Positions 6,684 through 24,800 of a DNA stretch of 26,011 nt are shown in pieces. Made by a program: the position numbers and the translations under genes. The stretch comes from a virus: positions 1-26,011 of IMG/VR virus record IMGVR_UViG_3300025132_000253; one strand, written 5' to 3'. The notes beneath the pieces were generated by a model. It saw only the letters and a program-made list of their open reading frames with translations, had not been told where the DNA came from and searched no databases. Numbering within the stretch: the stretch's first letter is position 1; every line of letters starts with the position of its first letter.

Positions 6684-6716
6684 AGGGCTCAGTTTTTATT
6701 CACTTTTCTGAGCCCT
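6684..6716. terminator. Bidirectional intrinsic terminator
   Basis: AGGGCTCAG (6684-6692) and CTGAGCCCT (6708-6716) form a perfect 9-bp stem with a 15-nt loop. TTTTT (6720-6724) follows on the plus strand, and five T follow on the minus strand (complement of 6680-6684). It lies exactly where the two convergent gene blocks meet, and the minus-strand stop codon at 6715-6717 overlaps its base. Confidence 0.8.
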
Positions 6717-8181
6717 ATCTTTTTAATACTGCAGCTCTAACTATTCTACCACCATATCTTTTTGCAAGTCTAGTAGCAGATGCATATGCTTTATCCCATT
6801 CTTTAGCTTTAATTGCAGATAATAAAGATTTTTTATAAGATTTATAAGGGACTATTTCTGTATTAGTATAGTATGTAATATGAGGATTTTTCTGCACCCA
6901 TCTTGCACCTTTTGCTAAGTCTAAAGCATCTGTATATAAATAAGATTTTCTTATTTTTACAGGTCTTATTTTTAAATCTTCACCTGCTTTTTTTACCCAA
7001 GTTCCAGGATATTTTTTTTCTAACGATGGCATAATATCTTTGCCCGTATATCTTTGATAATTTATATTAGCATTAAAACCACCTATTAATGGCAAAGGTT
7101 TTCTCATAGGACTAAATTGTAAAGTTCCTATACCAGTAGCAGGATTGTATTTAAAAGCTTTCATAAACTTAGCTACTTCTTCGTCTATTATACTAACTTG
7201 TTTATGTAAAGATTTACCATCTTTAGAGGGAAGCTCTTGTAAATGTTTAAATCTTTCTGTTGCTATTTTTTTTATTTCATTTGAATCACTCAAATCTTTT
7301 GTTTTAAACATAACATGTTCAGCCATTTGTTGCATATGATCGTTACGTACAGCTCTTTGTATAGAAAATATATCAGAAGAATTTTTTATTTTTGTAGCAG
7401 TTATTTTAGCTTCTGGATGTGCTATATCACTACCCCATACACCTATTGCATTACCATGGTTTCTTAAAGCATCTTTTTGATTAAATGAAAATAAATTACC
7501 CATATTAGTTTTTTCTATTCTATGTAACCCCCCAGCATCAAATAATCTTTGTCTAGCTTCAGTAATTTTTCCATCATACAAAATATCATTTAAATTTTTC
7601 CAAGCATTCTCAGCCCTAAGAACTCTTTGAGCTTTGCCAAGCTTTCCACGAAGACTAGGGTTCTCACCTGGAGCTAAATTTAACCTTCTTATAGCCATAT
7701 CTTCTTCCATAGCAGCTCTAAATTGACCCATATTATTAACAGGATTTCCACCTTTTATAATATGGCTTATATCCATATCAAAATCTTTTTTAGCTATGCT
7801 TATCAGTTTTTGTTTTATATTAGTATTTTTATTTATGCCAAGCTCTGTCCCATAATCATTAACCATTTTAGCTATTTCATCAGATTCATTGTTTATAAAA
7901 TGATCAGCAGACATACTAATTTTTTGCCATTTACTTAATCTAGGGTCATAGTATTTATCTATTTCAATACTAGCTTTAGAACCTACACGCTGTAACAAAG
8001 GTTGAGCAGCAGCTCTAATAGCTTCTTTACCAGCATAAGCACTAGCTGTACCAATTCCAATGTTTCTTAATTGAGTATTAATAATGTTAGCACGCTGAGC
8101 TTCTTCTTGCTCTCTTTTATAATCTTCCATTATAGGAGGAAAATCTATTTGGTCTTTTTTATCTGGTGGAGCAAACGACAT
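6715..8181 (-). CDS. Virion-block protein of unknown function, last gene
   Basis: A 488-aa protein that I do not recognise. It is basic, with a short Ala-rich segment near residues 35-65 (GIGTASAYAGKEAIRAAAQPLL) that could touch membranes. A long helical middle follows, then a Lys/Arg/Tyr-rich C-terminus ending RIVRAAVLKR. It starts in a TAATG overlap with the stop of the giant gene, so the two are probably translated together, and it is probably packaged or ejected with it. It ends in the shared terminator. Alternatives include a scaffold-like or internal virion protein; nothing indicates an enzyme. Confidence 0.75.
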   Translation of the reverse strand: MSFAPPDKKDQIDFPPIMEDYKREQEEAQRANIINTQLRNIGIGTASAYAGKEAIRAAAQPLLQRVGSKASIEIDKYYDPRLSKWQKISMSADHFINNESDEIAKMVNDYGTELGINKNTNIKQKLISIAKKDFDMDISHIIKGGNPVNNMGQFRAAMEEDMAIRRLNLAPGENPSLRGKLGKAQRVLRAENAWKNLNDILYDGKITEARQRLFDAGGLHRIEKTNMGNLFSFNQKDALRNHGNAIGVWGSDIAHPEAKITATKIKNSSDIFSIQRAVRNDHMQQMAEHVMFKTKDLSDSNEIKKIATERFKHLQELPSKDGKSLHKQVSIIDEEVAKFMKAFKYNPATGIGTLQFSPMRKPLPLIGGFNANINYQRYTGKDIMPSLEKKYPGTWVKKAGEDLKIRPVKIRKSYLYTDALDLAKGARWVQKNPHITYYTNTEIVPYKSYKKSLLSAIKAKEWDKAYASATRLAKRYGGRIVRAAVLKR

Positions 8182-11100
8182 TACATTATCCTAGGATAAA
8201 GCATTTCTTCATCTTTATATTTTTTGACTTGTCTAGCTAATTGTTGATTAGGCAATCCAGTTAATTTTTCTACAACCCTAGAAGGATTTTCTACTAAACC
8301 ACCTTTACCAAATATATCATAACCCATTCTACCAAACGGAAACATACTCCAAGCTATATAACTTGCATTAGTTGTTGAATCATCATTTATCATCCATTTA
8401 AACAAAGGAGGAAGAGCTCTAAATCCAGGAGGGGTTATTATCTGAAGAGGAGCAACAGCAGTAGGATAAGAACCATAAAATGCTCTACTCCTCTCTTTCT
8501 CATTACCAAAAGACCAATCTGCTAGGTCTTGCATCCAGCCATAAGGCTGAGGTAAAGTATTCTCAAACAAAGAATACATAAAGACGTTTGCCAACCCAAA
8601 CATCATTAAGTCCATTGCAGCCATCCGTTTAAATCTTTCCATTTCTTGAGTACCTTCTTTGTACCCACGAAGCTTAGCCTCAGCCATAGCTTCTTTTCTA
8701 AATCTTACAGAGTTCCAAGCCCACAACTGGAATCTAGTCATCATTTTACCCATAGTAGAACGAGCAAATGCAGGTCTAAATGGTGCAGAATATAAAAACT
8801 GTGTAGATTTTACACCCTCCATACCAAATTTAATTAGTATTGGATCGTCAAAGTTTTTTATACCACCTTCAAAGTTTTGTCTAGCATGCAAATAATGAGC
8901 CATAAATGCGTCTCTACGAAGAGTTCTTTCAGGTCTACGCATAAACCACGCAGCTTTATTAAAAACGCTATCAGCTATACCATTAGCTCTAGCAATCTGT
9001 CTTAACGAAGTATCAGGAAGATTAGGGTCTCTTTTTATTTTCTTTACAGCTTCTTTCATGAAGTTAGCGAAACGTTCACCTTGAAATTTAGGGTTAAGCC
9101 CAGCTTCATAAAGCAAAAAGTCTTCTACAACACCTAAACTTTGTACCCATTTTTCTACATCTCTCATGTTATTCCATTCAGGGTTAACATTAGATTGTAA
9201 ATATTTTATATTTCTAGCATTTTTAAAATTACCATATCCAGTATTAATTAAAGTATGGACACTACCACCGTAAAGGTTTGCAACAGCACTTTTAGGGTGA
9301 GCTAATAGAGTAGCTAACTGATACTTAGCCTCAAGATTACCCCATTTAGCAAGGTCACCAAAATCAATACCTTTTAACTCTTCAGGTAAGCCTCTTTCTT
9401 TAGCTTTACCTATGCCCATTTTCTTTCTTATTCCATTAATTCTATTCTTAACATTAGTATCGTTCCACCAAGCATAAGGAGTACCCTTTATTTTCATTCT
9501 TGGGTTATCGAGTACACTCTTAGGCAAGTTTTGATGATATCCAAGTGCATCTTGTGCGTACAAATTGTAAAAGTCTACCCAGTCAAATGTGTATTTAGGG
9601 TCTTTATGTTTTGCTAAACTTTCTTGTTGAAACTTATAAATATCTGATCGAACTTTTATTTGTGCAACATGCTTAAAATAATTATCTATCGCTTGTTTCA
9701 TGTACATAGGAAATATTTCAGGTTCTACACTCCATCCAGGAATGTGTGAATCTCTTTTTTGTTGAGAACCTATTTGCCTGTTTTCTGTAAAACCTTTTAT
9801 ATTTTCTAGTTTCTTACCACTTCTGGTAGCTATTGACTTATAAGCTTCAGATACAGCACCATAAGCATCATTAATATCAGCAGAAGGTATAAAGTCTCCA
9901 GTAAGTTGTTTATAACTATGTATAGCTTGTTTAATTTCCTTCATACGTGCTTCTTTAGACATATAAGGATCGTTAGCTAATTCTTGTATAACTTTTTTAA
10001 GACCTTTAGCAGCAAGTTTAGGGTCTCCTGGAAGATGTGGCCAATAACCTTTACCTAAATCACCAGTAGTTCCAATGTTAATACCATCTAATATTTGTTT
10101 TTTAACTGCTTCTTGAGCTTTAGGAAAGTAAGATATCATTTGGCTTTTAGCAATTTCTCTTATTCCATCAATGCTTTCAGCCATGCTTATAGGTTTTCCT
10201 TCAAGTAAAGCTTTGTCTATTTTCTTTAAAAACTTTTCTACTATTAAATAATCTCCGTCAAAACCTTTTCTATCTCTAAGAGGTTTATATTCTGTATTCC
10301 AAAGAGTGTTTCCAAATTTGTCTTTTCCTGCTAACCATCCATAAGTTCTTTGTGTCCATTTATCAATAATCTTATTTATTTCTTTTACAACTTGTTTACC
10401 AGTTTTTTTAGATACTTTTCCGTCTTTACCTATAACGCTAAATTCTTGATTCTGTAACTCTTTCCAATTAGTTTCTTTTTGTATTTCAGCCCATTTATCA
10501 TAATATTCTTTAGATTTAATATTATAAGCACTTTTATTTTCATTTTGTTTTATAATATCAGGTATGTTTTCTACTTCACGTTTTCTAACTGCTAATCTAA
10601 AAAATTTAGCACCATCAGGGATACCTTCTAAATAAGGTTGCAAATCTCTATCCCATTCTCTTTTTTGTTGTTCAAACATTTGAGTAGCTTGCTGTTGAGT
10701 AGCATACACACCAGATTGTAATTTTTCTATAGTAGCAGCAGGAGTTTTTATATTACTTCTAATCCACTCACCTTCTTTGTTTTTAAACAAACCACGTTGA
10801 TCTATTAATTTTAAATCATATCTTAATGTATCTTTACCTATAGCTTTAGGAAACATTAACCAATGCCATCTGCTTATAGGTGCTTTATTATCTTTAGCTG
10901 GTCTCATAATACGTTGCCACCAAGTACCATCTCTAGTCATATTAAACCATCTGTCTAAAGTTTTAAAATCTTCTAATGACGCAGCATTTAAATCTTTTTT
11001 GACAAGCCATCTCATAAGTCCGTTTAAATCTACACTATTAACGCTGTTAAAATGCTTTAAATGGTCTTTTATTCTTAAAGCTAACTCAGCCTCAGCTTTA

Positions 11101-14100
11101 TTTAATTTGCCCTCATTTAAGCCTATAAACGGCTCGTATTCATCTATTCTTTTTCTTTGAGCAGGAGTAAGCTCTGGGTCTTCTATAACTTTTTCAAAAT
11201 CAGTTTCAATTTTTTCAGCTTCTTTTAAATTTTTAACTGAATCTATTTTTACTACACTAGTATCATATAGTTTTTGGTATTCGCTTAGCATTCGTTTTAC
11301 ACTAGAATCAGGAATAGCATCAGAATTATAACCCACTCTAGACAAGCTTGTTTTCTTGGAATCATGTATCATTGCATCAACTTGTTCTCTAACAGCTTCA
11401 GAAGGAGCTTCATCTCTTAATTTTTGTGCATCAAATTTTCTACCTCTAAATAAAGTGCCAAGCATAAACGCATCAAAAAGCTTAGCCTCTTGAGAATTAA
11501 GAGTCTTCTTTTCTTTCTTTATTTTAAAATCAATCTGAGCTTGATCAAGTGAAGCAGTTTGTTTTTCACCAGCAATTTTAATTCTAGCTGATTCTAAATA
11601 AGCCATTTCTATAGGGCCTAATAATACATCTTCTCTATCAATTTTTCTTGACTTTTTAGCTAAAAGTGCACTACTTTTCTTTAAATCATCTGCTTTTTTA
11701 GCTAAGAATCTTATTCTTTGAGTAGATATATTTTCACTTAAATCAGAAATAACTTTCATACTAGCAATATCGGAGAAATCATTAACAATAAAATCCTCAG
11801 CTTTTCTAACAATCTCGTTAAGATAACGTGCTCTTTGTTCAAGATTGTTATTATCAAAATCACGACGCTTATTGTAGCTCTTGAAAATATCAGTAAGAAA
11901 TAAATTATTATTATATTTACTATTTTTAGGGTCTAATTGCTCTTTCATTCCTTCAGGAGTATGTAAACGATGTTTAAAAACAGCATCTACAACTTTACTT
12001 TTAGGAACAGCCATTGAGCTCCTGCCAAGTATGTCTTTTAATGCATCTAATTCTGGCAACCTTTTTTCATGATTTTTGTAAATATCAAAAAGTTTTGTTT
12101 CATTAACACGATTTAAAATACTATCACTCCAATCTAATCCTTTTAGATCAGTACCTATTTTAGTAAGAAAAGTGTTTCTATGTTCTTTTGGTATACCTGT
12201 TTTAAGATTATCTAAATTTTCTAATTTATTTTGTATTTCCCATAAATTAAAAGTTCTATTCTCAGCATAGTTTTTACTATATATAGCTTGATTTACATCT
12301 TTAATTTTATCTATAATAATTTTTCTATGACTATCTTCAATAAGATTTTTTTGTCTTAGAATAGGCTTACCTTTTTTATCAACAATCATATACTCAAACA
12401 ATGCATCAGTTTGTTTTTTAAGCAACCCTTGGCCATATTTACCAAAGTTTAATCCAGCTTCATCCATAGGGTCAGAAGCAAAACCAACAGAAGCTCTAGT
12501 TAACCCTCTAAATGCTCTTAAATTTTTCTCTGCAGTTTTAGCTTTTATTCTTATCCTTATTGGTTTTTTTAATATATTAGAATAAACTTCTACAAACATT
12601 TGACCATTAGGCATAGACCTTATAGAAGAGTAAGCAGATTTAATATATGAAGATTGCGTAACAGCTATTCCTAATTGATTTCTTCCTTGAGAAGCTGCAT
12701 CTGAAGCAATATTACGAGTTAAGGGAGAGAACTGAAGTGCTGGATTAGCAACATCATCCTTAGCTTTTCCTTGTGTAGTTAATTCCTGTCTATATGTTTT
12801 TGGTTTTTTAGGATCACTTAAAGGATTAATTGCATCTTTATTAGACTCTTCCATTCCGTTTTTAACATATTCATTTTTAGACCAATCAAATGCATCTTTC
12901 CATTCTTTTTTAAAACCCGAACCTTTACCATCAGAAGATTTACCACCAAAAAATATAAAAGCTTTGTCTCCATCAAGGTCTGCACCTCCAAGTGCTTCCA
13001 TTGTTCTTCCATGTAATAAACTTCCAAAACCTCGTATACCAGTAAATCCTTTAAACTTTAATGCATGTGCACCAGACATAGAATCCATAGGTGTTCTTAC
13101 AACTAATGCTCTAAATAATTCTTCTAAATCCTTATCACGCTTACCTTTACCTTCTTTTTCTCTAGCTAAACTTCTTTCATAGGCTTCCCATAATTCACCT
13201 AAAGGTTTCTTACCTTTTTGGCCTAACCCAGTTACATCTACCATTAATTTTTTAAATCCGTCATCTAAAAAGAATACATCATCTCTTTTTTCTAATATTC
13301 TAGTAATCCCTTCTTTAGACATACCAATTTCATAAGGTCTCATTCTAGAAACAGAACTGTTACCTATTTCAGGTCTAGTAATACTACTAACTAAATAATT
13401 TCTAATAACAGACATTCTATAATCACGATTAAATTTATGAGTAAATCCAGCTAAGCTATTATCAACAAGCTTAACAACTCTTTCGTGAACAGTTTCAAAA
13501 TCAAGAGATTCATTTTTTATTTGCTCAAGTTGTTTATCTGTGTATTCTCCATCAGCTCTCATTTGCTCTACAACATCTCTATTTAATTTTTGTATTTTTG
13601 TATACACTTCATTAGTAAATTTTTCTAGCCCTGGTTTTTTTAATGCTTGAAGCATTTCGTGTACACCGATATTGTCAAGATTTTCTACCAACTCTTTGAT
13701 TAAATTTTCTTTAGCTATGGGGTCTCTAGCGTATTCTGCTAGCTTGCCATTCATTTCAGGATTGCCTTCAATTCTTTTACCGCTAGTTTCTTGATACATA
13801 TTTTCAAATATTTCAGTCATAGCTTCATTATATTCAGCTTCTGTCTTAAATGGAGCTTTTCTAGGGTCAAAAAAAGAAAATGGTGTATAATTAGTCCATA
13901 ATTGTTTCAACATTCTTTGAGGTTTTAAATACTTATCACCAGTTTTTTCAGATAAAATTACTTTAATATCTTTTATTGGCAATTTGTAAGATTCGCCTAC
14001 AACTCTAGGTGCATTCCTATACCATTCAAACTTACCTGGGTTTCTTTCACCTATTTGCTTAGCAGCTGATTTAGGTATAACTAAATGTATATTATTTTGC

Positions 14101-16655
14101 TGCATATACTTTTCCATTTTAGGAGTAACAGAATGTATCATATACTTGCCTAATAAAGCTCCATATTTAGGGCTAGGAGACACGATAAATGATTTATTGA
14201 CTCCACCTTCGATTGGAAGCCCTGCCTGCTTATTTAAGCCATCTATAATATCAGAACGACCATATATTGCTCCATCACCCGTAGGAAACAACTCACTGTT
14301 TTTAGTTCCAATTAATTTTTGCCCTTCAGATGCCAAGTCTTCTACTATTTTTATATTTAGCTCATTGTTTTCTATATCCGATTTACCTTTTCTAGCTTTT
14401 TCAGTAGTCCTAATAATAACTTCAGGATCAGAACTGTAGCCAGATGTAAACCATATTTGTGACCTTTTATTAAAGCCTTTTGCATTTCCTATATATCTCC
14501 CCTCAGAACTACCTTTAACAATCTTAGATATATCTTTTAAGCCTCCCTCATAACCATTTAATCTTACAGTATATAAAGCATTAGATATATAAGCTCTATC
14601 AAAAAGTTTTTCTGCTTCTCTTTTATTTTTTAAACCACTAGAATACTTATCTACAAATTCTTGTCTTGATGTATTAATTTCTTTTAAATCTTTTTCACTT
14701 ACCCCAGAACTTTTTAAATAATTTTTTAACTGTCTCATTGTATTTCTTGTAGCAGCAACAGTAGTAGGAGTTTCTGGATGATATTTTGTGAAATACATTC
14801 TTTCAGCATCTCCTCTACCACCATAATAATATTGTTTTTGAACATCATTCATATATGAAAACAATTTTCCAATTTCTTTATTAAATTGGTTTGTTCCAGA
14901 TTGTTCTCCTAAAAATCTAGCTTCTTTAAAATTTCTAGCAGTCCCTTCAGACATTATTTTGCTTGTATTTAATTCTATTAAATAATCTTTGTATTTATTA
15001 AGACTGTACTCTTTTACACCAGTTGACGTATTTTTTACAACATGATCTAAGATTGAGTAAACACCTCGACTGCTTACTTTCCCAGGTTGTATTTTAGATA
15101 AATCTTCTAAATAAATTTCTTCTATTAACTTACGTTCTTGACTGAGCATTTTTCTATTTCCAGCAGCATTAACTGCGGAACCTGATTCGTCAAGCTTCAT
15201 TGCTCTAGGAACTCCATTTTCAAAAGTAATCATTTCTACTGGAGAATCTTTAATCCTTCTAAAGCCTATATTAACCCAAAAATCTCTATCCTGTTTTGAA
15301 GAACTACTAAAACCTGGATGTTTTTCATTAATATAATCTACCATATCATCAGCAGGATTAATTTTATTTTTCTTACCTTTTCTAATTAACTGTAACCATT
15401 TATTGTTTAAATCACCAGCAATTAAAAGTCTTTCCCCTTTGCTACTATTGCTTAAATATTCAGACATATTATTGTCAACAAATGACTTAGCGTTTATAGA
15501 GATTCTATCAGGTATATTTTGTGGGTCTACATCTTCACCACTTAGTTCCATTTCTCTACGTTCTTCTTTTGTAAGGTTTCTTAAAGGTTCTCCTTCTTCG
15601 CCAAACTTAATAGTTGTTATCTTTTTCTCAGCCTCAATTAATTCTTTTGCTCTTACCTCTGCTTCTTGAGGAGAAATTCCTTTTACATTTTTTAATATGT
15701 CAGCAGCTAAACGATTAACAGGGTCTTGTTCTAGTTTTAATTGTTTTATAACAATATCTTTTCCTGGTTGATCTATCTTGTCCCAACCTTCTACAAACTC
15801 AGGGTCTTTTATTCCTCTTTCTCCTGTTATAGGGTCTTTTTGTTTTCTCATCTTTATAAGATGTTGTTGTGCCATACGTCTGTGGACTGGTAATTCATTC
15901 TTACCAAAATAAGCACCAAGTACATATTGATATATTTGCATAGGTGTAGTTTCACCACGCATAGTAGATGGTAAGCCTGTAAACAATGAACCAGCCAATG
16001 TTTTTAAAGCAGTATCTGCTTTAGGGCTACCAGTCTGAACAAGGTTACCAATACCTCTAAAAGCACCACCAGCTATAGCTCCGTGTTTAAATGCATCCAT
16101 CATTTCATCTACACCACCTTGCCAAGAACTAACAGAGCTAGCAACACCTAAATGAAATGCTCCAGAAGCTACATCTTTAACTACGTTGCTTTGTAAAAAC
16201 CCTGTAGCTGTTTTACCAGCAGCAGCACGAGCTTCAATAGCTCTACCATATATAGGGTTAACTATTTTTTTAACACCTTGCTCTGCTTTTCTAGCAGCTA
16301 TCATAGGTACAGACATGCCTCTAGCAGCTCTAACTCCTGGTATATAGCCTACAAATCCAGCTAAGTGACCTAAGTTCCTAGCTATAGCTTCTGCGTCACC
16401 AACAGGAGGTTCTCCAGTTTTAAACGTAGTAAAGCCTTCAAAAAAACCTGACCCAGCTTGAGCCATTATACTTTTTGTTTTATCTATAAAATTTTTATTT
16501 GATTCTGCAAAGGGAAGTTTATAATACTCAGCATGTTGCTGAATAGCTTGAACGGTTTGTTCGTTAAATTGGTCAGGCTTTTGCTCGTAAAGCCTTTTAA
16601 AATTCTTTACCTGCTGAGGGGATAAGCTAGGTCTAAATCCTTGAGGGGTAGCCAC
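8181..16655 (-). CDS. Giant virion-block protein with two-barrel RNA polymerase catalytic motif
   Basis: A 2824-aa protein starting at GTG, 3 nt after the previous stop. The N-terminus (1-260) has Ala/Gly-rich membrane-like segments and GLPSTMRGETTPMQIYQYV near 223-245. A beta-rich, Lys-rich region lies at about 822-960. Arg1187-Thr-Pro starts RTPMDSMSG, and 37 residues after Pro1189 comes GGADLDGDKAF with Asp1226, Asp1228 and Asp1230. This matches the R-x-P ... D-x-D-G-D layout of RNAP beta' (E. coli R425, D460/462/464) and of YonO/QDE-1-type enzymes. A Gly/Ala helix (about 1307-1335) and ASVGFASDPMDEAGLN (about 1388-1402) follow. The C-terminal half is helical with a membrane-like stretch near 2680-2700. 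Inferred: an RNA polymerase ejected with the DNA, like crAss-like gp66 in strategy. The coding sequence is certain and the polymerase call likely. Confidence 0.8.
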   Translation of the reverse strand: MATPQGFRPSLSPQQVKNFKRLYEQKPDQFNEQTVQAIQQHAEYYKLPFAESNKNFIDKTKSIMAQAGSGFFEGFTTFKTGEPPVGDAEAIARNLGHLAGFVGYIPGVRAARGMSVPMIAARKAEQGVKKIVNPIYGRAIEARAAAGKTATGFLQSNVVKDVASGAFHLGVASSVSSWQGGVDEMMDAFKHGAIAGGAFRGIGNLVQTGSPKADTALKTLAGSLFTGLPSTMRGETTPMQIYQYVLGAYFGKNELPVHRRMAQQHLIKMRKQKDPITGERGIKDPEFVEGWDKIDQPGKDIVIKQLKLEQDPVNRLAADILKNVKGISPQEAEVRAKELIEAEKKITTIKFGEEGEPLRNLTKEERREMELSGEDVDPQNIPDRISINAKSFVDNNMSEYLSNSSKGERLLIAGDLNNKWLQLIRKGKKNKINPADDMVDYINEKHPGFSSSSKQDRDFWVNIGFRRIKDSPVEMITFENGVPRAMKLDESGSAVNAAGNRKMLSQERKLIEEIYLEDLSKIQPGKVSSRGVYSILDHVVKNTSTGVKEYSLNKYKDYLIELNTSKIMSEGTARNFKEARFLGEQSGTNQFNKEIGKLFSYMNDVQKQYYYGGRGDAERMYFTKYHPETPTTVAATRNTMRQLKNYLKSSGVSEKDLKEINTSRQEFVDKYSSGLKNKREAEKLFDRAYISNALYTVRLNGYEGGLKDISKIVKGSSEGRYIGNAKGFNKRSQIWFTSGYSSDPEVIIRTTEKARKGKSDIENNELNIKIVEDLASEGQKLIGTKNSELFPTGDGAIYGRSDIIDGLNKQAGLPIEGGVNKSFIVSPSPKYGALLGKYMIHSVTPKMEKYMQQNNIHLVIPKSAAKQIGERNPGKFEWYRNAPRVVGESYKLPIKDIKVILSEKTGDKYLKPQRMLKQLWTNYTPFSFFDPRKAPFKTEAEYNEAMTEIFENMYQETSGKRIEGNPEMNGKLAEYARDPIAKENLIKELVENLDNIGVHEMLQALKKPGLEKFTNEVYTKIQKLNRDVVEQMRADGEYTDKQLEQIKNESLDFETVHERVVKLVDNSLAGFTHKFNRDYRMSVIRNYLVSSITRPEIGNSSVSRMRPYEIGMSKEGITRILEKRDDVFFLDDGFKKLMVDVTGLGQKGKKPLGELWEAYERSLAREKEGKGKRDKDLEELFRALVVRTPMDSMSGAHALKFKGFTGIRGFGSLLHGRTMEALGGADLDGDKAFIFFGGKSSDGKGSGFKKEWKDAFDWSKNEYVKNGMEESNKDAINPLSDPKKPKTYRQELTTQGKAKDDVANPALQFSPLTRNIASDAASQGRNQLGIAVTQSSYIKSAYSSIRSMPNGQMFVEVYSNILKKPIRIRIKAKTAEKNLRAFRGLTRASVGFASDPMDEAGLNFGKYGQGLLKKQTDALFEYMIVDKKGKPILRQKNLIEDSHRKIIIDKIKDVNQAIYSKNYAENRTFNLWEIQNKLENLDNLKTGIPKEHRNTFLTKIGTDLKGLDWSDSILNRVNETKLFDIYKNHEKRLPELDALKDILGRSSMAVPKSKVVDAVFKHRLHTPEGMKEQLDPKNSKYNNNLFLTDIFKSYNKRRDFDNNNLEQRARYLNEIVRKAEDFIVNDFSDIASMKVISDLSENISTQRIRFLAKKADDLKKSSALLAKKSRKIDREDVLLGPIEMAYLESARIKIAGEKQTASLDQAQIDFKIKKEKKTLNSQEAKLFDAFMLGTLFRGRKFDAQKLRDEAPSEAVREQVDAMIHDSKKTSLSRVGYNSDAIPDSSVKRMLSEYQKLYDTSVVKIDSVKNLKEAEKIETDFEKVIEDPELTPAQRKRIDEYEPFIGLNEGKLNKAEAELALRIKDHLKHFNSVNSVDLNGLMRWLVKKDLNAASLEDFKTLDRWFNMTRDGTWWQRIMRPAKDNKAPISRWHWLMFPKAIGKDTLRYDLKLIDQRGLFKNKEGEWIRSNIKTPAATIEKLQSGVYATQQQATQMFEQQKREWDRDLQPYLEGIPDGAKFFRLAVRKREVENIPDIIKQNENKSAYNIKSKEYYDKWAEIQKETNWKELQNQEFSVIGKDGKVSKKTGKQVVKEINKIIDKWTQRTYGWLAGKDKFGNTLWNTEYKPLRDRKGFDGDYLIVEKFLKKIDKALLEGKPISMAESIDGIREIAKSQMISYFPKAQEAVKKQILDGINIGTTGDLGKGYWPHLPGDPKLAAKGLKKVIQELANDPYMSKEARMKEIKQAIHSYKQLTGDFIPSADINDAYGAVSEAYKSIATRSGKKLENIKGFTENRQIGSQQKRDSHIPGWSVEPEIFPMYMKQAIDNYFKHVAQIKVRSDIYKFQQESLAKHKDPKYTFDWVDFYNLYAQDALGYHQNLPKSVLDNPRMKIKGTPYAWWNDTNVKNRINGIRKKMGIGKAKERGLPEELKGIDFGDLAKWGNLEAKYQLATLLAHPKSAVANLYGGSVHTLINTGYGNFKNARNIKYLQSNVNPEWNNMRDVEKWVQSLGVVEDFLLYEAGLNPKFQGERFANFMKEAVKKIKRDPNLPDTSLRQIARANGIADSVFNKAAWFMRRPERTLRRDAFMAHYLHARQNFEGGIKNFDDPILIKFGMEGVKSTQFLYSAPFRPAFARSTMGKMMTRFQLWAWNSVRFRKEAMAEAKLRGYKEGTQEMERFKRMAAMDLMMFGLANVFMYSLFENTLPQPYGWMQDLADWSFGNEKERSRAFYGSYPTAVAPLQIITPPGFRALPPLFKWMINDDSTTNASYIAWSMFPFGRMGYDIFGKGGLVENPSRVVEKLTGLPNQQLARQVKKYKDEEMLYPRIM
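8186..8199. repeat. 14-bp perfect palindrome at the giant-gene end
   Basis: TTATCCTAGGATAA is a perfect palindrome over the last codons of the giant gene. Its minus-strand AGGA half is the likely Shine-Dalgarno for the next start at 8181. It may be chance from the codons used. Confidence 0.4.
12966..13097 (-). other. Predicted RNAP catalytic loop (R-T-P ... D-L-D-G-D)
   Basis: These codons encode residues 1187-1230 of the giant protein. The three aspartates of DLDGD would hold the catalytic magnesium, and Arg1187 corresponds to the arginine near the NTP in beta'. The GG-A-D-L-D-G-D wording is closest to the S-G-S-D-L-D-G-D form of eukaryotic RNA-silencing polymerases and their phage relatives. 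Confidence 0.7.
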
Positions 16656-16658
16656 ACA

Positions 16659-17633
16659 TTATTCCCGTTCAAGTATTTTATTATCAGAAAGAAGACCAGT
16701 TGCTGCAATGCTTCCTAATAATCCAGCTGCAATTTTACCTTTACTGCCCATTTTAGAAAGACCTTGTATAGCTCTTTGCGTTATTGTAGGCTTACCAATA
16801 CCTCTAGATATTACTTGATCAATAGCACTTCTGCTACCTTTAACTGCTCTTTGTAAATCTGGATTATTATTTAATGCTATTCTTTGTGCTTGTTTTGCAG
16901 CTTCTCTTTTTTTAGCAACTTCTTTAACAGCGTCTTTATATTTATTAGTTCTTCTATCGCCAACAGCATCTTTTGCAATTTCTTGTGGACTTCTTCGTTT
17001 AATAACTCTTTTTCCGTTTTCAGTTACTGCTTTAAATCCTTGTGCTCTTAAATCTCTCATTGCTTCAATATTAGGTTTTGCAGGATTTATTCTACTATAT
17101 AATCTTTCAGCAGCAATAGCTCCACCAGTTCCAATAGCTAAATCTTTAGCAATATCACCAACACCAATACCAGTATTTTCTCTTGGTATAATAGCATTAT
17201 TTAAAGCATAATCATATAAATCAGGGTTTTCTTTTAATGTGTTTCTAATTTTTTTCTCACTAAAACCAGATTCAGTCATAGCTGCTATTTGATTAGCAAG
17301 ATTCATATCATACATTTGTTTTCCCATTTGATATTTTTCTTGGAATACCATAGGGTCTATGCCTCTATTAGAAGGCATATTAGCACTAAGTTCGTTCCAC
17401 AAATCAAATGGATCAGAAAAAGGCGTAGCTGCTTTAATTGCATCTATATTAACAGTATTGTCTGAGTTAAGCATTCTTGTTATAGGTAATGCTTGTTGTT
17501 GTATACGTTGATTAAAATTTATATTGGCATTGTTTACTTGCCTATCAGCACCTATTTGTGCGTTTCTATCTCTATCTAAAGCTTGTGCTAAAGGTGCATA
17601 AGCTGCCATTACTTGTTCTGCTCTTATTGACAT
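16659..17633 (-). CDS. Putative internal virion / ejection protein (324 aa)
   Basis: An unrecognised protein directly before the giant gene. The N-terminal 90 residues are Gln/Asn/Ala-rich and helical. Near residues 155-180 is a Gly/Ala segment (GVGDIAKDLAIGTGGAIAAE) and at the C-terminus another (GKIAAGLLGSIAATGLLS), both able to enter membranes. Between them is a strongly basic helical region (residues 200-260). Such mixed basic and membrane-active make-up is common in phage internal proteins that form a DNA-delivery channel. It is in the same frame as the giant gene, separated only by TAA and one codon before GTG. Confidence 0.6.
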   Translation of the reverse strand: MSIRAEQVMAAYAPLAQALDRDRNAQIGADRQVNNANINFNQRIQQQALPITRMLNSDNTVNIDAIKAATPFSDPFDLWNELSANMPSNRGIDPMVFQEKYQMGKQMYDMNLANQIAAMTESGFSEKKIRNTLKENPDLYDYALNNAIIPRENTGIGVGDIAKDLAIGTGGAIAAERLYSRINPAKPNIEAMRDLRAQGFKAVTENGKRVIKRRSPQEIAKDAVGDRRTNKYKDAVKEVAKKREAAKQAQRIALNNNPDLQRAVKGSRSAIDQVISRGIGKPTITQRAIQGLSKMGSKGKIAAGLLGSIAATGLLSDNKILERE

Positions 17634-17637
17634 AATA

Positions 17638-18285
17638 TTAATTCCTAAACTTGTTAAATAAAGCCATTACACCTTTACCAGTCCCAGCAAGACCACCAGT
17701 AGTTAGTCCACTAACTTGCATTTGACCAAATTCATCTCTTGTCATTCCATCCATACCAGGCATTATTCCTTGTTTGTATAAAGCTCTTGGGTCTGCATTA
17801 GAATTTTTAAATTCTTCTAAATTTTTATTATATTCTTCTTCGTTAACCTGATAATCAGGTTGAGCATTAGGGTCAGTATAAGGATTTGCTTGAGGTTCGT
17901 TATAAAGCCCTCTGTCTTTTAATGCTTGTCTATAATTTACTTTATATTCATTGCCAATATCTTGACCAAACCCTTTAAGTTGATCCCAAATACTACCCAT
18001 TTTTTTACTAGCTCCACCAAACATAGGAGTATTTACTTCTTGTAAGCTTGACATACCCATATTTCCTTGCTGTGTTCTTATATTAGGATTAAAAGATGGG
18101 TCTTTCATTAAAGCATGTATATCCATATTTGGTTTTATTTCATTAGGTTTTTCATAACCACCAGAAGCTAAAGCATTATCATCAAAAGTTGGAGTAGTAG
18201 GATTAGTTGGAGGAGTTGGATTCTCAGGCATTCCAGAACCTTTCATCATATTAAACAAACCACCTAAACTTCCAAACTTAAACAC
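17638..18285 (-). CDS. Pro/Asn-rich virion-block protein (215 aa)
   Basis: It starts at GTG in a TAGTG overlap with the previous stop. The N-terminus has a short hydrophobic Phe/Gly/Met stretch, then a Pro/Thr/Asn-rich low-complexity region (residues 18-75). A helical middle and a Gly-rich end (GLTTGGLAGTGKGVM) follow. No enzyme motif is present. Neighbours and composition point to a small internal or ejection protein. I do not recognise a family. Confidence 0.6.
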   Translation of the reverse strand: MFKFGSLGGLFNMMKGSGMPENPTPPTNPTTPTFDDNALASGGYEKPNEIKPNMDIHALMKDPSFNPNIRTQQGNMGMSSLQEVNTPMFGGASKKMGSIWDQLKGFGQDIGNEYKVNYRQALKDRGLYNEPQANPYTDPNAQPDYQVNEEEYNKNLEEFKNSNADPRALYKQGIMPGMDGMTRDEFGQMQVSGLTTGGLAGTGKGVMALFNKFRN

Positions 18286-18815
18286 TAACTAAAAACCCTT
18301 CCTAAAAGACCCATTCCTGTTTTACCTAAAGCGTCTATACCCGCTCCAATTGTGCCTAATCCTTCTTGCCCCATCATTCCTTGACCTATGCCCATCATAG
18401 CTCCAGCTTGTCCTAGTCTAGCTTGCATTGCGTTTTGTCTTCCAGCTTGCATTTGTCTTGCTATGTTGCTGTCTATATCAGATTGTAACCTAGCTGCGTT
18501 GCCAAGACCTCCTTGAAAACTTTGATAAGCCTTATTAACGCCACTCTGTTTTAATCTGTTCTTAATAGCATTAGCTTGACTACCTCCCATACCCATCATC
18601 ATAGCATCTTGTACGCCTTGGTTCCCAGCTTGTGTTGCTAAATCCATAGCTCCACCAGAATACTGATTAAAATTAGTCATTCTATCTATAAGACCTTGAG
18701 AGCCTGAAAATGTACTTCTTAAATTTGATTCGGAAGGTTGTGCCATTTTAGCAACGTCACCCATTGCTTTATGTCCTCGATACATACCATATGCACCTGC
18801 TAATAATCCTAGCAT
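18285..18815 (-). CDS. Gly/Met/Ala/Gln-rich putative pilot protein (176 aa)
   Basis: A low-complexity protein rich in Gly, Met, Ala and Gln, with a hydrophobic start (MLGLLAGAYGMY) and a Gly/Met-rich C-terminal third (AGAMMGIGQGMMG). This composition is typical of podovirus DNA-transfer proteins such as P22 gp7 or T7 gp14 types, which leave the virion and insert in the host envelope; sequence homology is not claimed. It is the first of three such genes that precede the giant protein. AGGAGA (18822-18827 on the minus strand) lies 6 nt before the ATG, one of the best ribosome sites in the block, so high expression is likely. Confidence 0.65.
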   Translation of the reverse strand: MLGLLAGAYGMYRGHKAMGDVAKMAQPSESNLRSTFSGSQGLIDRMTNFNQYSGGAMDLATQAGNQGVQDAMMMGMGGSQANAIKNRLKQSGVNKAYQSFQGGLGNAARLQSDIDSNIARQMQAGRQNAMQARLGQAGAMMGIGQGMMGQEGLGTIGAGIDALGKTGMGLLGRVFS

Positions 18816-19638: not shown

Positions 19639-21822
19639 TTAAATCCATTTCCTTGCTTTTTGTAAAGCTTTTATTTGTCTTTGTTGTTCTTGTATTGCTT
19701 TTACTAATACGGGTACTACTTTAGCATAATCCACAGTTAAAAACGATTTATCTTCATTTAACCCTTCTCGTTCTTTCACTAATTCTGGAATAACTTTTTC
19801 TACCTCTTGAGCTATAAATCCTACATCATGAGTGTTATTATGTTTTCTATCCCAATCAAAATCAACAGCTCTTAATTTTAAAATATCTGATAAGCCGTAT
19901 TTAGTATCAACAATATTTCTTTTTAATTTTCTATCTGAACCAATAGATGTTGAATAAGCTATAACATCTTGGTCGCAATGAACATTGCCATTGCTTTTAA
20001 CTCTCATTCTTTCTACTACAGCACTACCACTATACGTTGAAAATTTTAACTCATAACTACTTTCTGATATAGTTGCATTGCCATTAGCCCATGTAAAGCC
20101 ATAACCAGCAGACATATATTGCCAGCTATCCCAAACTGTAAAATTTTGAGGATTTTGACTAGTGTGTCCTATTGTAAGCTTCCCAGGTATATATAGGTTA
20201 CCATTACCTTGTAAATTCATTATTGTTGTGTCATCATATCTTTTCCATACTTGACAATAATTACTACTATTGGCACCTGCTCTTACATAAACACCGTAAC
20301 CGTTACTAGCAACATTGTAAATATCTAAAACAGAATTTGCAGATAAAGTGTTGCTGCTACTTTGAATTATTTTACTAGTTGTTCCACTAAAAGATAAATT
20401 CCCGCTAGTAACTGTTAGCTCACCAAAAGAAGTATTATCATAAGCCATAAATGAACCAGTGTTAGCAAAAGCCATTGATCCTAATTCTCTTTTACCGATT
20501 ACATTGCTTCCATTTATCATAACAGCAGTTGCTTCAGAAGACTGGTCACTTAAACTGCTAAGTGTCAATCCTGTAAAAGTTGGTGCATTACTTGTCCCTA
20601 TGCTTTGCCCTATAGAAACAGTAACCTTATCTGTGCTACCAACTACTGTGCTTACACCTGTTCCACCTTCTATGTCAAGCGTATTACCATGAGCTATAGT
20701 TTGATTGCTTCCACTATCTGCAGTTAATGTAAATGTAGTAAGTTGATTTGTATTAGTGTCAGTATTAAGAGCATTTAAAGTTATAGTGTGTACATTATTA
20801 CTAGTACTTACTGAACCTGTACCATAGCTTCCTTCTTGCGTAACAATTTTTATTATTTGTGCGTCACTTACTTCAATATCAGGAAATAAATTAAAATCAG
20901 ACATAAAGCTACCTGTAGATTTAATAGCTGCTGTATGCTGTGTTACACTACTTTCTGATATTCTAGCATCTACAAACGTACCTTGATTTATTTTACTTGT
21001 AGCTAATGCTGGTATTTGACTTGCTTGTAATCCACTTATATCTGAAACTACAAATGCAGTATTAACAAAAGCAGTTCCATTGTGTCTTAAATAATGACCA
21101 GCAGAAGGACTAGAAGTAGCCATATCGGTTAAAGTATTTGTACTAGCACTGGATATATACTGTCCAAGGTTAAGCATTGTTTCTAGCTGACTTAATGTTA
21201 TTTCTTCTACATTACCAGTACCAGCTGTATCTCTACCTAAAAATGTATCAGTATTAATTTGTTGAAGCTTGGCATAAGTTACAGCATTATTAGTTATTTC
21301 TGCTGTATTTACAGCGTTATCAGCCATCATAGAGTTTTCTACTGCATTAGTAGCTATTGTAGCGTTTATTGTAGCAGAGCCACTACCACCAGTAATGTCT
21401 CCAGTAAAACTAAAATCCGTAGCATTATCATCTACATATTTTTTAGTAGCTAAATGTAAATCATTACTGGGGGCAACACTTGTTGGTGCAGCAGTAAATG
21501 GAACAGTTCCATCAGGTTTAATATAAGTTTCAGTAGAGCTAAAATTTATAGTTTCATCTTGCCCAGCATCATTGTTATCAGAAAACAATAACTCACGCTT
21601 AGCCCAACCATCACCAAACTTACCTTCAATAAAATATTTAGTACGATCTACGTCTTTAAATAATCTTATGTCACCATCTTTACCAGACGCACCGTCTCTG
21701 CTTTCTACTCCAGATTTATTATTTACTGCCTTTATTATATCATTAATATCATCGTACACCTGAGACCAAGCACGTTCATTCGATGATACCGATGGAGCTC
21801 TTTTAGATTTTAAATCAGACAT
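19639..21822 (-). CDS. Tail fibre/spike with C-terminal S74 self-cleaving chaperone
   Basis: A 727-aa protein. The N-terminus (1-110) probably attaches to the tail; a GASGKDGDI segment is a short collagen-like trace. Then come beta-rich repeats with patterns such as NAVENSMMADNAVNTAEITNNAV (given here only as a region, about residues 155-190) and Ser/Thr/Asn-rich shaft. The C-terminal 99 residues are the intramolecular chaperone of endosialidase (peptidase S74): SDRKLKRNI starting at Ser629, the expected self-cleavage site, then LRAVDFDW, VGFIAQEVEKVIPELV and a final helix. The chaperone trimerises the fibre and is then cut off. It starts in a TAATG overlap with the 1079-aa gene. Confidence 0.85.
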   Translation of the reverse strand: MSDLKSKRAPSVSSNERAWSQVYDDINDIIKAVNNKSGVESRDGASGKDGDIRLFKDVDRTKYFIEGKFGDGWAKRELLFSDNNDAGQDETINFSSTETYIKPDGTVPFTAAPTSVAPSNDLHLATKKYVDDNATDFSFTGDITGGSGSATINATIATNAVENSMMADNAVNTAEITNNAVTYAKLQQINTDTFLGRDTAGTGNVEEITLSQLETMLNLGQYISSASTNTLTDMATSSPSAGHYLRHNGTAFVNTAFVVSDISGLQASQIPALATSKINQGTFVDARISESSVTQHTAAIKSTGSFMSDFNLFPDIEVSDAQIIKIVTQEGSYGTGSVSTSNNVHTITLNALNTDTNTNQLTTFTLTADSGSNQTIAHGNTLDIEGGTGVSTVVGSTDKVTVSIGQSIGTSNAPTFTGLTLSSLSDQSSEATAVMINGSNVIGKRELGSMAFANTGSFMAYDNTSFGELTVTSGNLSFSGTTSKIIQSSSNTLSANSVLDIYNVASNGYGVYVRAGANSSNYCQVWKRYDDTTIMNLQGNGNLYIPGKLTIGHTSQNPQNFTVWDSWQYMSAGYGFTWANGNATISESSYELKFSTYSGSAVVERMRVKSNGNVHCDQDVIAYSTSIGSDRKLKRNIVDTKYGLSDILKLRAVDFDWDRKHNNTHDVGFIAQEVEKVIPELVKEREGLNEDKSFLTVDYAKVVPVLVKAIQEQQRQIKALQKARKWI

Positions 21823-24800
21823 TATCTAGGGCTTCGTTTTGTTCTAAATAATATCCCTACAGCACCGCATTCATCTCCAGCAGTATTAGAGTCTAACCTT
21901 ACCTTGAGATTTGTTGCTTTTTGATTAACATCCATTCTATAAGTACCTCTAACTTGAGTATTAGATACTTGACTTCCAGCAGAAGGTTTGCTGCTATTTA
22001 TAGTATAATTAGCTTTAATCCTAGAAGGTAACAATATTTTTTTAATACTTTTTTGCTGAGTATCGTTACCCATTGTTAAATCTTTAGATACCCAAGTCCA
22101 TTGTCTTTTAGTGCTAGCGTGTCCTAAAAATTGAATAATAGATGTTCCATTACTTACATTTATAGTATTATCATCTAACGTATAAGAACCTTTAGGTTGT
22201 GCTGTACCTTCAGTGTCTCCAAATGATAGCAAATCCCATCTTTTTCTTGGTATGTTCCATGCCCAGGCATAAAAATTATTACCTGTTTTAAACGTAAAAT
22301 ATACGCTTCTACGCTTAGCATCATACATAGCCCTAGTATAGTAAGAGGTATCCCTGTTTTGCCAAGAATATGTAGAGTCACCTCTTACTATAGCTTCGCC
22401 TATTGGTTCTGCTGATTGTCCATTATGCTGATATATATTATTGTTATCAGCAAAAAATAAACCAAAGTCAGTAGAAACAATGGCATCATCATTTAGGCAG
22501 CCAACGCCTTCGAAGATATCCTCGATATATAAATCATTACCACCACGTATTCTATAAGTATTTGACTTATCAAATGCAAATACTCTTCCAGCAAAACTTA
22601 TTAATGCTGTAGGAACTGTAGGTAGTTTAATAAAATCTACCACCCAATCAAACACATCAAACTTTCCAACCTTAGATACAAAGATATAGGTGCTTGCGTC
22701 ATCGATATAACCTTCGTGAGCACAGTTGCCTATGTAATGTTGATTATTTAGTTGAGTTGATAGTGAGTAATTGGGTAGTGTAGCTTCTATACTTTCAGGT
22801 AGTCCAGATTCTGCTTCATACGAAGCTCCTTTTGTACCTGTGTCAATTATTGTTTGAGTTTTTCCAGATGTTCCAGAATCAGCCCATCCTGATGCAAATG
22901 TTAAAAATTTGACAAGCCTGTATACTGACACAGGTGCAGTAGCACTAGAAGCTGATGACTCAGCTCTATAAATTTTTATTCCAGAAGCTCTGTCAGGTAT
23001 TTGAAATTTATCATTAATGGTTATAGCTATACTTGTATTAGTAGTTGTTCCTGCATCTATAACAGTTTCTAAAGAAGGATTAGATTCTTGATATCCATCA
23101 TACATCATACTAATTTTATAAAAATATGTATATCCATTCTGAAGTTCTGACGTAGTGCTTGAAACATCGCTAGCTGCTAAACTTATTAAACTATTATCTT
23201 TAAAAAATACCCAACTACTTGCACTTGTAAATGTTTTTGGAAGCTTATCCATTCCAGATGTTCCTGATTGTCTTAACAATACAAAGTTTGTACCATCTGC
23301 TGAATAAGTACTTCCTGTTGATGCAGTGCTTGAAACATATCCAAAATGAACATTAACACCTAATCTATTTATTTGACCAGATGGTGCAACATCGTATAGT
23401 ATTTCTTGGGTAGGCCCTGTAGCATTGTTTGCAACTAAATGACGAACGTTGTAGGGGCTACTACTACCATCAGAAGAAGTCCAACTTGTAGCTAGATCAA
23501 CAGATAGCTTTTGTACAGCATCTCCTTTTGTTAAATATATTTCACTAGGATTTGTACTAAGACTATCTACTCCAATACTAGTTATATCACAAGTAGTGAA
23601 AGCCTGGATTCCTTGTTCAAAATTAGTTGCAGTTCCATTAGCATTATTAGGATGATATACATTTGTTATTGGAACAAAATCTCCACCAGAATTATTTGTT
23701 CCAGCACTATGGTTATTTTTAATTCTATGCAAAGCTAAGGTTATAGGTTTAGTTACAGATTCAACTTTAGCAAGATTATCCGCACCTGTTATATCATCTC
23801 CATCTCTGTTAAGCCATCTTACAGCATAATAATCCCCAGCTCCGCCTTCTGTATTCCCACTGTTTTCATACCTAGCTAGCCAATATATAGCAGCATTATC
23901 GTTAGTTTTTAAAAGACTCCTGGGGAATGTTTCTTGAATACTATTAGTAGTAGGATTTATATCATTTGCATCAAAAGCACCAAAGCTATCTTGCTCAAAT
24001 TCAACCCAAGTTCCAACAGTATCTTTATCGCCTCCTTGCATATTAGGCATCATATTTGTAGGAGTTACTGTAGCACTACTACCACTATCTGTAATTTTAA
24101 ATAACAACTTAACACCAGAATCTGTATTTCCAGTAGCAGGTCTTTTAGTATCGTAATGGCAAGCAAGCCATATAGTGCTTCCTGTGCTTGTATATTCTAT
24201 ATCTGTATAATTACTTCCTGAAGGCCCAGCGTAAGTTCCTAAAGTATAAGTTACTGCTTTTGTGCTTAAATCTGATGTTGCAACTTTGTAAACTATTCCA
24301 TCCCCAACTTTATCTAAAACAAATAAATTTCCACTACCATCAGTACAAATTGATCTTAAATTTGAAAACGTTCCTAATATAGAAGTAGATACAGCACTTC
24401 CTCCGCTAGCATCATTAGAGCCATCAAGTTTCCATATTTGAGTACCACCAAGCTCTATTCCATATATATGACCATCGCTTCCACCTTTAACTACTTTATA
24501 CATAAAAGGAACAGATGAAGGATACTTTACTTCAGCATCTTCAACTATAAGTTTTTTTGCACTTTGAGTCAAACCTTTATGATTAGTATAGCCAGCCCAT
24601 TTAGGTTTATTGGTAAGTCCTAACCCCACATGAACTTCTTTATTATTATTTTCCATAGCAACATTATCAAGAGGAGTATCTTGAAATGTTATTCCATTGT
24701 TTACAGAAAAAGGAGTAGAACTTGGGTCTAGTATTGGATTTGTGTTTTGAGCATCTTGTATAAAATGAAGTTTGTTTGTATCGTCTTCCCAAGCTACAAC

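Follow-up and report, generated by a model that had tools for sequence, protein, structure and literature searches.

A predicted two-barrel RNA polymerase within the giant late-block protein of an uncultured phage family with a P22-type portal

The window analysed here, a single virus record of 26,011 bases, encodes on its minus strand a virion-block protein of 2824 amino acids, which raises the question whether this protein is an RNA polymerase and whether the phage carries it in the particle and injects it into the next host. The initial annotation had pointed to RTPMDSMSG at residue 1187 and to DLDGD at residues 1226-1230, and both were found where it had placed them, with a spacing of 37 residues from P1189 to D1226 and the motif block at window positions 12966-13097. 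By a rough estimate from residue frequencies, about 1e-4 occurrences of the pattern R.P(37)D.DGD are expected by chance in a protein of such length. As a single query, the protein gave no informative match in Pfam, PHROGs, PDB sequences or INPHARED (tblastn). Its parts are as follows.

8181..16655, minus: giant virion-block protein, 2824 aa, GTG start; N-terminal region, predicted two-barrel RNA polymerase and large C-terminal region
15216..16655, minus: N-terminal region, residues 1-480; Gly/Ala-rich in the first 330, conserved around 200-255; putative envelope or ejection segment
11676..15158, minus: predicted RNA polymerase module, residues 500-1660; confident model with phi14:2 gp66 as top PDB match
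13941..14204, minus: probable DPBB-B, residues 818-905 (NKSFIV...GALLGKYMIH...SAAKQIG); with K837 and K866 as putative catalytic lysines
13071..13097, minus: RTPMDSMSG, residues 1187-1195; RxP motif preceding the catalytic loop, in gapless match with gp66 R1322/P1324
12966..12980, minus: DLDGD, residues 1226-1230; predicted metal-binding catalytic triad of DPBB-A, aligned with gp66 DFDID at 1361
12621..12728, minus: conserved region past DPBB-A (SPLTRNIASDAASQGRNQLGIAV); candidate bridge helix
12450..12476, minus: SDPMDEAGL, residues 1394-1402; conserved, candidate trigger-loop side element
8184..10958, minus: C-terminal region, residues 1900-2824; helical nearly throughout and strongly conserved, candidate ejection or regulatory domain

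The sequence motif had been read as the signature of a double-psi barrel polymerase, and structure prediction agrees with this reading. An AlphaFold2 model of residues 500-1660, built with 26 family sequences, reached a pLDDT of 84.8 and a pTM of 0.80, and in a Foldseek search against the PDB its best match was the virion RNA polymerase of phage phi14:2 (6vr4, gp66; E 1.9e-8), followed by QDE-1 (5.3e-5), P74 gp62 (6.9e-3), the AR9 nvRNAP (0.1) and then cellular RNA polymerases. The Foldseek probability was 1.00 for both 6vr4 and QDE-1, and RNA polymerases make up nearly all of the 50 PDB fold matches listed. The TM-scores are not high (for 6vr4, 0.43 of the query) and the rmsd given is large, as one would expect when multi-domain proteins are only remotely related. 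Against viral models, the same search returned crAss-like giant proteins at E values of 1e-11 to 1e-6. The central module is thus predicted to have a two-barrel polymerase fold, in which DPBB-A would lie at about 1182-1240, DPBB-B near 818-905 and the polymerase centre as a whole at about 600-1660.

An alignment of the family with a separate profile of seven crAss-like sequences (hhalign) gave 57 gapless columns at E 3e-5 and placed R1187, P1189 and D1226 on gp66 R1322, P1324 and D1361, with all three aspartates aligned and a spacing of 37 in both; the residue register to gp66 is taken from this alignment and from the whole-domain fold match. A forced alignment to gp66 extended past the DPBB-A block is of low confidence, and it is in this alignment only that K837 and K866 fall near gp66 lysines. 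The C-terminal part, serving as a negative control, matched nothing in the PDB at E 0.001 and scored only E 0.68 against the gp66 profile.

The residues of the putative active centre are conserved throughout the family. The arginine, the proline and the three aspartates are kept at the constant 37-residue spacing in 68 of 68 distinct cores, which were drawn from loci detected with motif-free patterns. Neither outcome that the initial annotation had named as refuting, a confident model with the loop outside a double-psi barrel or loss of the aspartates in close homologues, was obtained. The family consensus reads R.PMD..SG...L.F.GFT...G.G...H.......GGADLDGD, and further conserved blocks are NKSFIV...GA.LGK...SAAKQ.G (818-870), PKQM, GR..LG.AV and SDP.DE.GL. 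In the other barrel, K821, K837 and K866 are invariant in an alignment of 28 sequences that reaches down to about 31% identity. In four loci (L022, L024, L030, L043) the polymerase is interrupted behind the DPBB-A block by a circularly permuted YpsA/SLOG domain (PF12694, with E values as low as 1.9e-28); most family members do not have this insert. Inteins as the identity of the inserts after DLDGD in L022, L024 and L030 were ruled out, the inserts containing cpYpsA (SLOG) domains. Annotations of crAss-like polymerase proteins likewise name extra domains (DprA-like, DUF1768).

How widespread the giant protein is could be judged from viral metagenomes. A direct search of IMG/VR contigs yielded four relatives with 62-67% identity to the giant protein, and a polymerase-region profile based on patterns outside the catalytic motif yielded 32 loci with identities down to 29%. 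Profiles of the polymerase core and of the C-terminal part matched 195 and 288 related contigs, respectively (80 of each were kept); the two sets overlap and include near-duplicate contigs. Judged by sequence, the giant gene is shared by about 200 related viral sequences, its full-length ORFs spanning about 2,800-3,600 aa, and these matches strengthen the earlier suggestion of a new lineage. The family is unrecognised by Pfam and PHROGs. No relative was found in GTDB genomes by profile search, neither the window protein nor one divergent member gave a match in INPHARED, and the family profiles gave none among PDB sequences. The viral structure library contains unnamed members (A0A516LW39, 24% identity, E 2.7e-52 by Foldseek), so that single family sequences are already present in UniProt.

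The genes that flank the giant gene in the window are the following.

18285..18815, minus: 176-aa Gly/Ala/Met-rich protein; candidate ejection or internal virion protein, from position and composition only
17638..18285, minus: 215-aa protein; candidate ejection or internal virion protein, from position only
16659..17633, minus: 324-aa protein directly upstream of the giant gene; candidate ejection or internal virion protein, from position only
6715..8181, minus: 488-aa protein; its gene closes the late block and begins right where the giant gene ends

The initial annotation had placed the giant gene in a virion block after three ejection-type genes. The late-block site and the contiguity with the upstream genes are borne out, but the ejection type of the three genes (16659-18815) found no informative Pfam or PHROGs profile match. 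The same arrangement recurs in three annotated genomes of the family (G001, G011, G012), where the late block starts with terminase, portal and MCP, continues with fibres and small genes, and finishes with the giant gene plus one further gene, converging on the replication block; the giant gene is penultimate in each, with a gene of 476-761 aa at the place equivalent to that of the 488-aa protein. Among 23 large genomes the giant gene is present once in every one, nearly always accompanied by genes for a helicase, an HNH nuclease, an AAA protein, ThiF, terminase and portal, and often by JAB. The portal of G001 belongs to the P22_portal family (PF16510, E 7.4e-65), and a portal gene is present in 22 of the 23, the window record being without that stretch. 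Contigs of the family reach 55 kb. Its phages are probably short-tailed (podovirus-like), as judged from the portal family.

Some other genes may be mentioned. The early block of the window encodes a JAB-like peptidase (2-739; weak Pfam match) and then a ThiF/E1-like protein (684-1391), a ubiquitin-system-like pair that was found in most family genomes. A 727-aa protein (19639-21822) is probably a self-cleaving tail fibre because of its C-terminal Peptidase_S74 endosialidase chaperone domain. An early protein of 581 aa (L113:1189-2931; 21189-22934 in G001) has no PHROGs match and is patchily conserved across genomes. Of the genes checked, none was recognised as coding for a DNA polymerase.

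With respect to other transcription enzymes, no second polymerase with the GGADLDGD or two-barrel signature was evident in the 23 large genomes, and no T7-type RNA polymerase (PF00940) was detected in 14 family genomes, in a scan whose positive control was the T7 enzyme (9.9e-110) and did not include the N4 vRNAP, itself a T7-like enzyme. The best account of a late-encoded polymerase within a giant protein, in genomes where no other early phage enzyme was recognised, is that it travels as cargo to the next host. Since the giant protein holds a relative of the crAss-like particle polymerase, the phages probably deliver a transcription enzyme of their own along with their DNA. We therefore consider the giant protein likely to be a single-chain two-barrel RNA polymerase that is carried in the virion and injected; the late-block position, the conserved architecture and the analogy to known systems point to packaging and injection, and catalysis and early transcription are predicted along with them. 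The protein would be produced late, alongside the products of the head genes, and enclosed in the capsid. In the next infection it would leave through the tail together with the internal proteins encoded next to it, probably in a partly unfolded state, and would refold on the cytoplasmic side, where it would transcribe the first phage genes with its central polymerase, whose DPBB-A would hold the metal-binding D1226, D1228 and D1230 as well as R1187 and P1189.

The N- and C-terminal regions may handle packaging, passage and anchoring, as is thought for the flanks of the N4 vRNAP. The C-terminal flank is conserved as much as the enzyme part; its model is of low confidence (pLDDT 63), and a fold search with it returned matches at chance level and no recognisable relative. 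The membrane-like ends described earlier are not well supported, the sole hydrophobic 19-mer lying at residues 2679-2697 (mean Kyte-Doolittle value 1.45) and stronger ones being rare in relatives. The anchoring role of the ends is thus a conjecture, as ends that span a membrane are poorly backed by hydropathy.

Position in the late block alone is no proof of packaging, and P23-45 gp64 is an example of a non-virion two-barrel RNA polymerase (PMC10770324), so that the enzyme of the family described here might instead stay unpackaged and act late in the same infection on late or replication genes. We consider this unlikely, given that the giant gene is penultimate in the late head block and not early, that the polymerase is embedded in a protein of about 2,900 aa with an equally conserved C-terminal flank, and that no other phage RNA polymerase was recognised for early transcription, a task that the host enzyme could also take on. 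The fold, which is near QDE-1 as well as gp66, the cpYpsA/SLOG domain within the polymerase of some relatives and the failure to find an early promoter motif would also fit an injected two-barrel protein that acts on RNA or on the host, be it an RNA-dependent polymerase, a primer-making enzyme or a defence-blocking effector. Such a function is quite improbable, however, as, among relatives of solved structure, the closest is a DNA-dependent RNA polymerase of the virion (PMC7886860) and the extra domain is missing from most members. Very little speaks for a barrel that is merely a catalytically dead structural relic in an ejection or scaffold protein: although zeta crAss-like phages have disrupted RNA polymerase genes (PMC7886860), and activity is here a prediction from sequence and model, the invariance of the catalytic positions in all 68 distinct cores and of the lysines of the other barrel down to about 31% identity makes this highly improbable.

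No promoter motif common to the family was found in early intergenic DNA, which counts against the injected-polymerase reading. Exact copies of TACTGCTAGTA occur in two related genomes, at 13139 (-) and 13202 (+) in G011 and at 24030 and 24094 in G012, each of them a small inverted repeat with a 4-bp stem and a 3-nt loop, in the divergent region between the terminase and the early genes. In G008 the divergent region has TAAACTGTAGTTTACTA, with a near copy lying 23 bases further along. These repeats are possible promoters or operators, but are not family-wide. TACTGCTAGTA was accordingly rejected as a family vRNAP promoter; de novo 11-mers were hardly above shuffles.

Virion-carried polymerases have been described for crAss-like phages (PMC7886860, PMC10172136), P23-45 (PMC10770324) and N4 (PMC12633501). 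The best fold match, phi14:2 gp66 (gp077 in the record, PDB 6vr4), resembles the protein described here in being a single-chain two-barrel RNA polymerase that forms part of a giant protein encoded close to where the late block ends, with RxP(37)DxDxD in register; gp077 adjoins structural proteins detected by MS and is itself annotated as structural from MS/MS. It differs in showing only about 10% identity over the fold match, in its length (2180 versus 2824 aa), in having DFDID in place of DLDGD, and in lying among three large neighbouring structural proteins (gp076-078) rather than forming one giant chain. The phi14:2 genome is a Crassvirales genome of about 100 kb, in contrast to contigs of at most 55 kb here, and with portal, terminase and MCP of G001, G011, G012 and G008 as queries, tblastn against phi14:2 30-100.4 kb returned nothing at E 1e-2; going by head-gene homology and genome size, the family would thus fall outside Crassvirales.

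In the Thermus phage P23-45, gp96 is a virion RNA polymerase fused to the tape measure (PMC10770324), and thus, as here, a two-barrel polymerase joined to a large DNA-entry protein. However, its polymerase is N-terminal (DFDGD at 779 of 5,002) whereas ours is more central, and P23-45 is long-tailed and has a second RNA polymerase, gp64, in contrast to the P22-type portal and the lack of a second enzyme among our findings. gp96 was absent among the PDB fold matches listed, and P74 gp62, an nvRNAP homologue, was a weaker match (6.9e-3). In layout, the protein appears closest to N4 gp50 (Schitoviridae, PMC12633501), a giant single chain with an N-terminal domain, a central polymerase and a large C-terminal domain; the likeness is one of architecture and layout only, since gp50 is T7-like and the enzyme here two-barrel and gp66-like by predicted fold. 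QDE-1 and the eukaryotic RNAi RNA polymerases share the two-barrel single-chain fold as the second-best PDB match, but belong to a cellular RNA-interference system and show 11-12% identity over the match. We regard the virion two-barrel RNA polymerase as the known kind to which this family adds a new lineage; members of the family may already appear in the supplementary surveys of PMC10770324.

On balance we favour the view that this uncultured P22-portal phage group, of family level, has built an N4-style ejected giant protein around a two-barrel polymerase, so that entry machine and early polymerase would be one chain. The sequence set supplies homologues in number, the predicted catalytic residues and approximate borders of the domains, so that the activity is directly testable. 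Injected polymerases were previously known from N4-like, crAss-like, jumbo and P23-45-type phages. The present family extends this list by a large lineage from the environment, of modest genome size (contigs of up to 55 kb), in which a gp66-like enzyme is paired with a P22-type head, and suggests that the fusion of a polymerase to the entry machine arose, or spread, repeatedly with unrelated catalytic folds.
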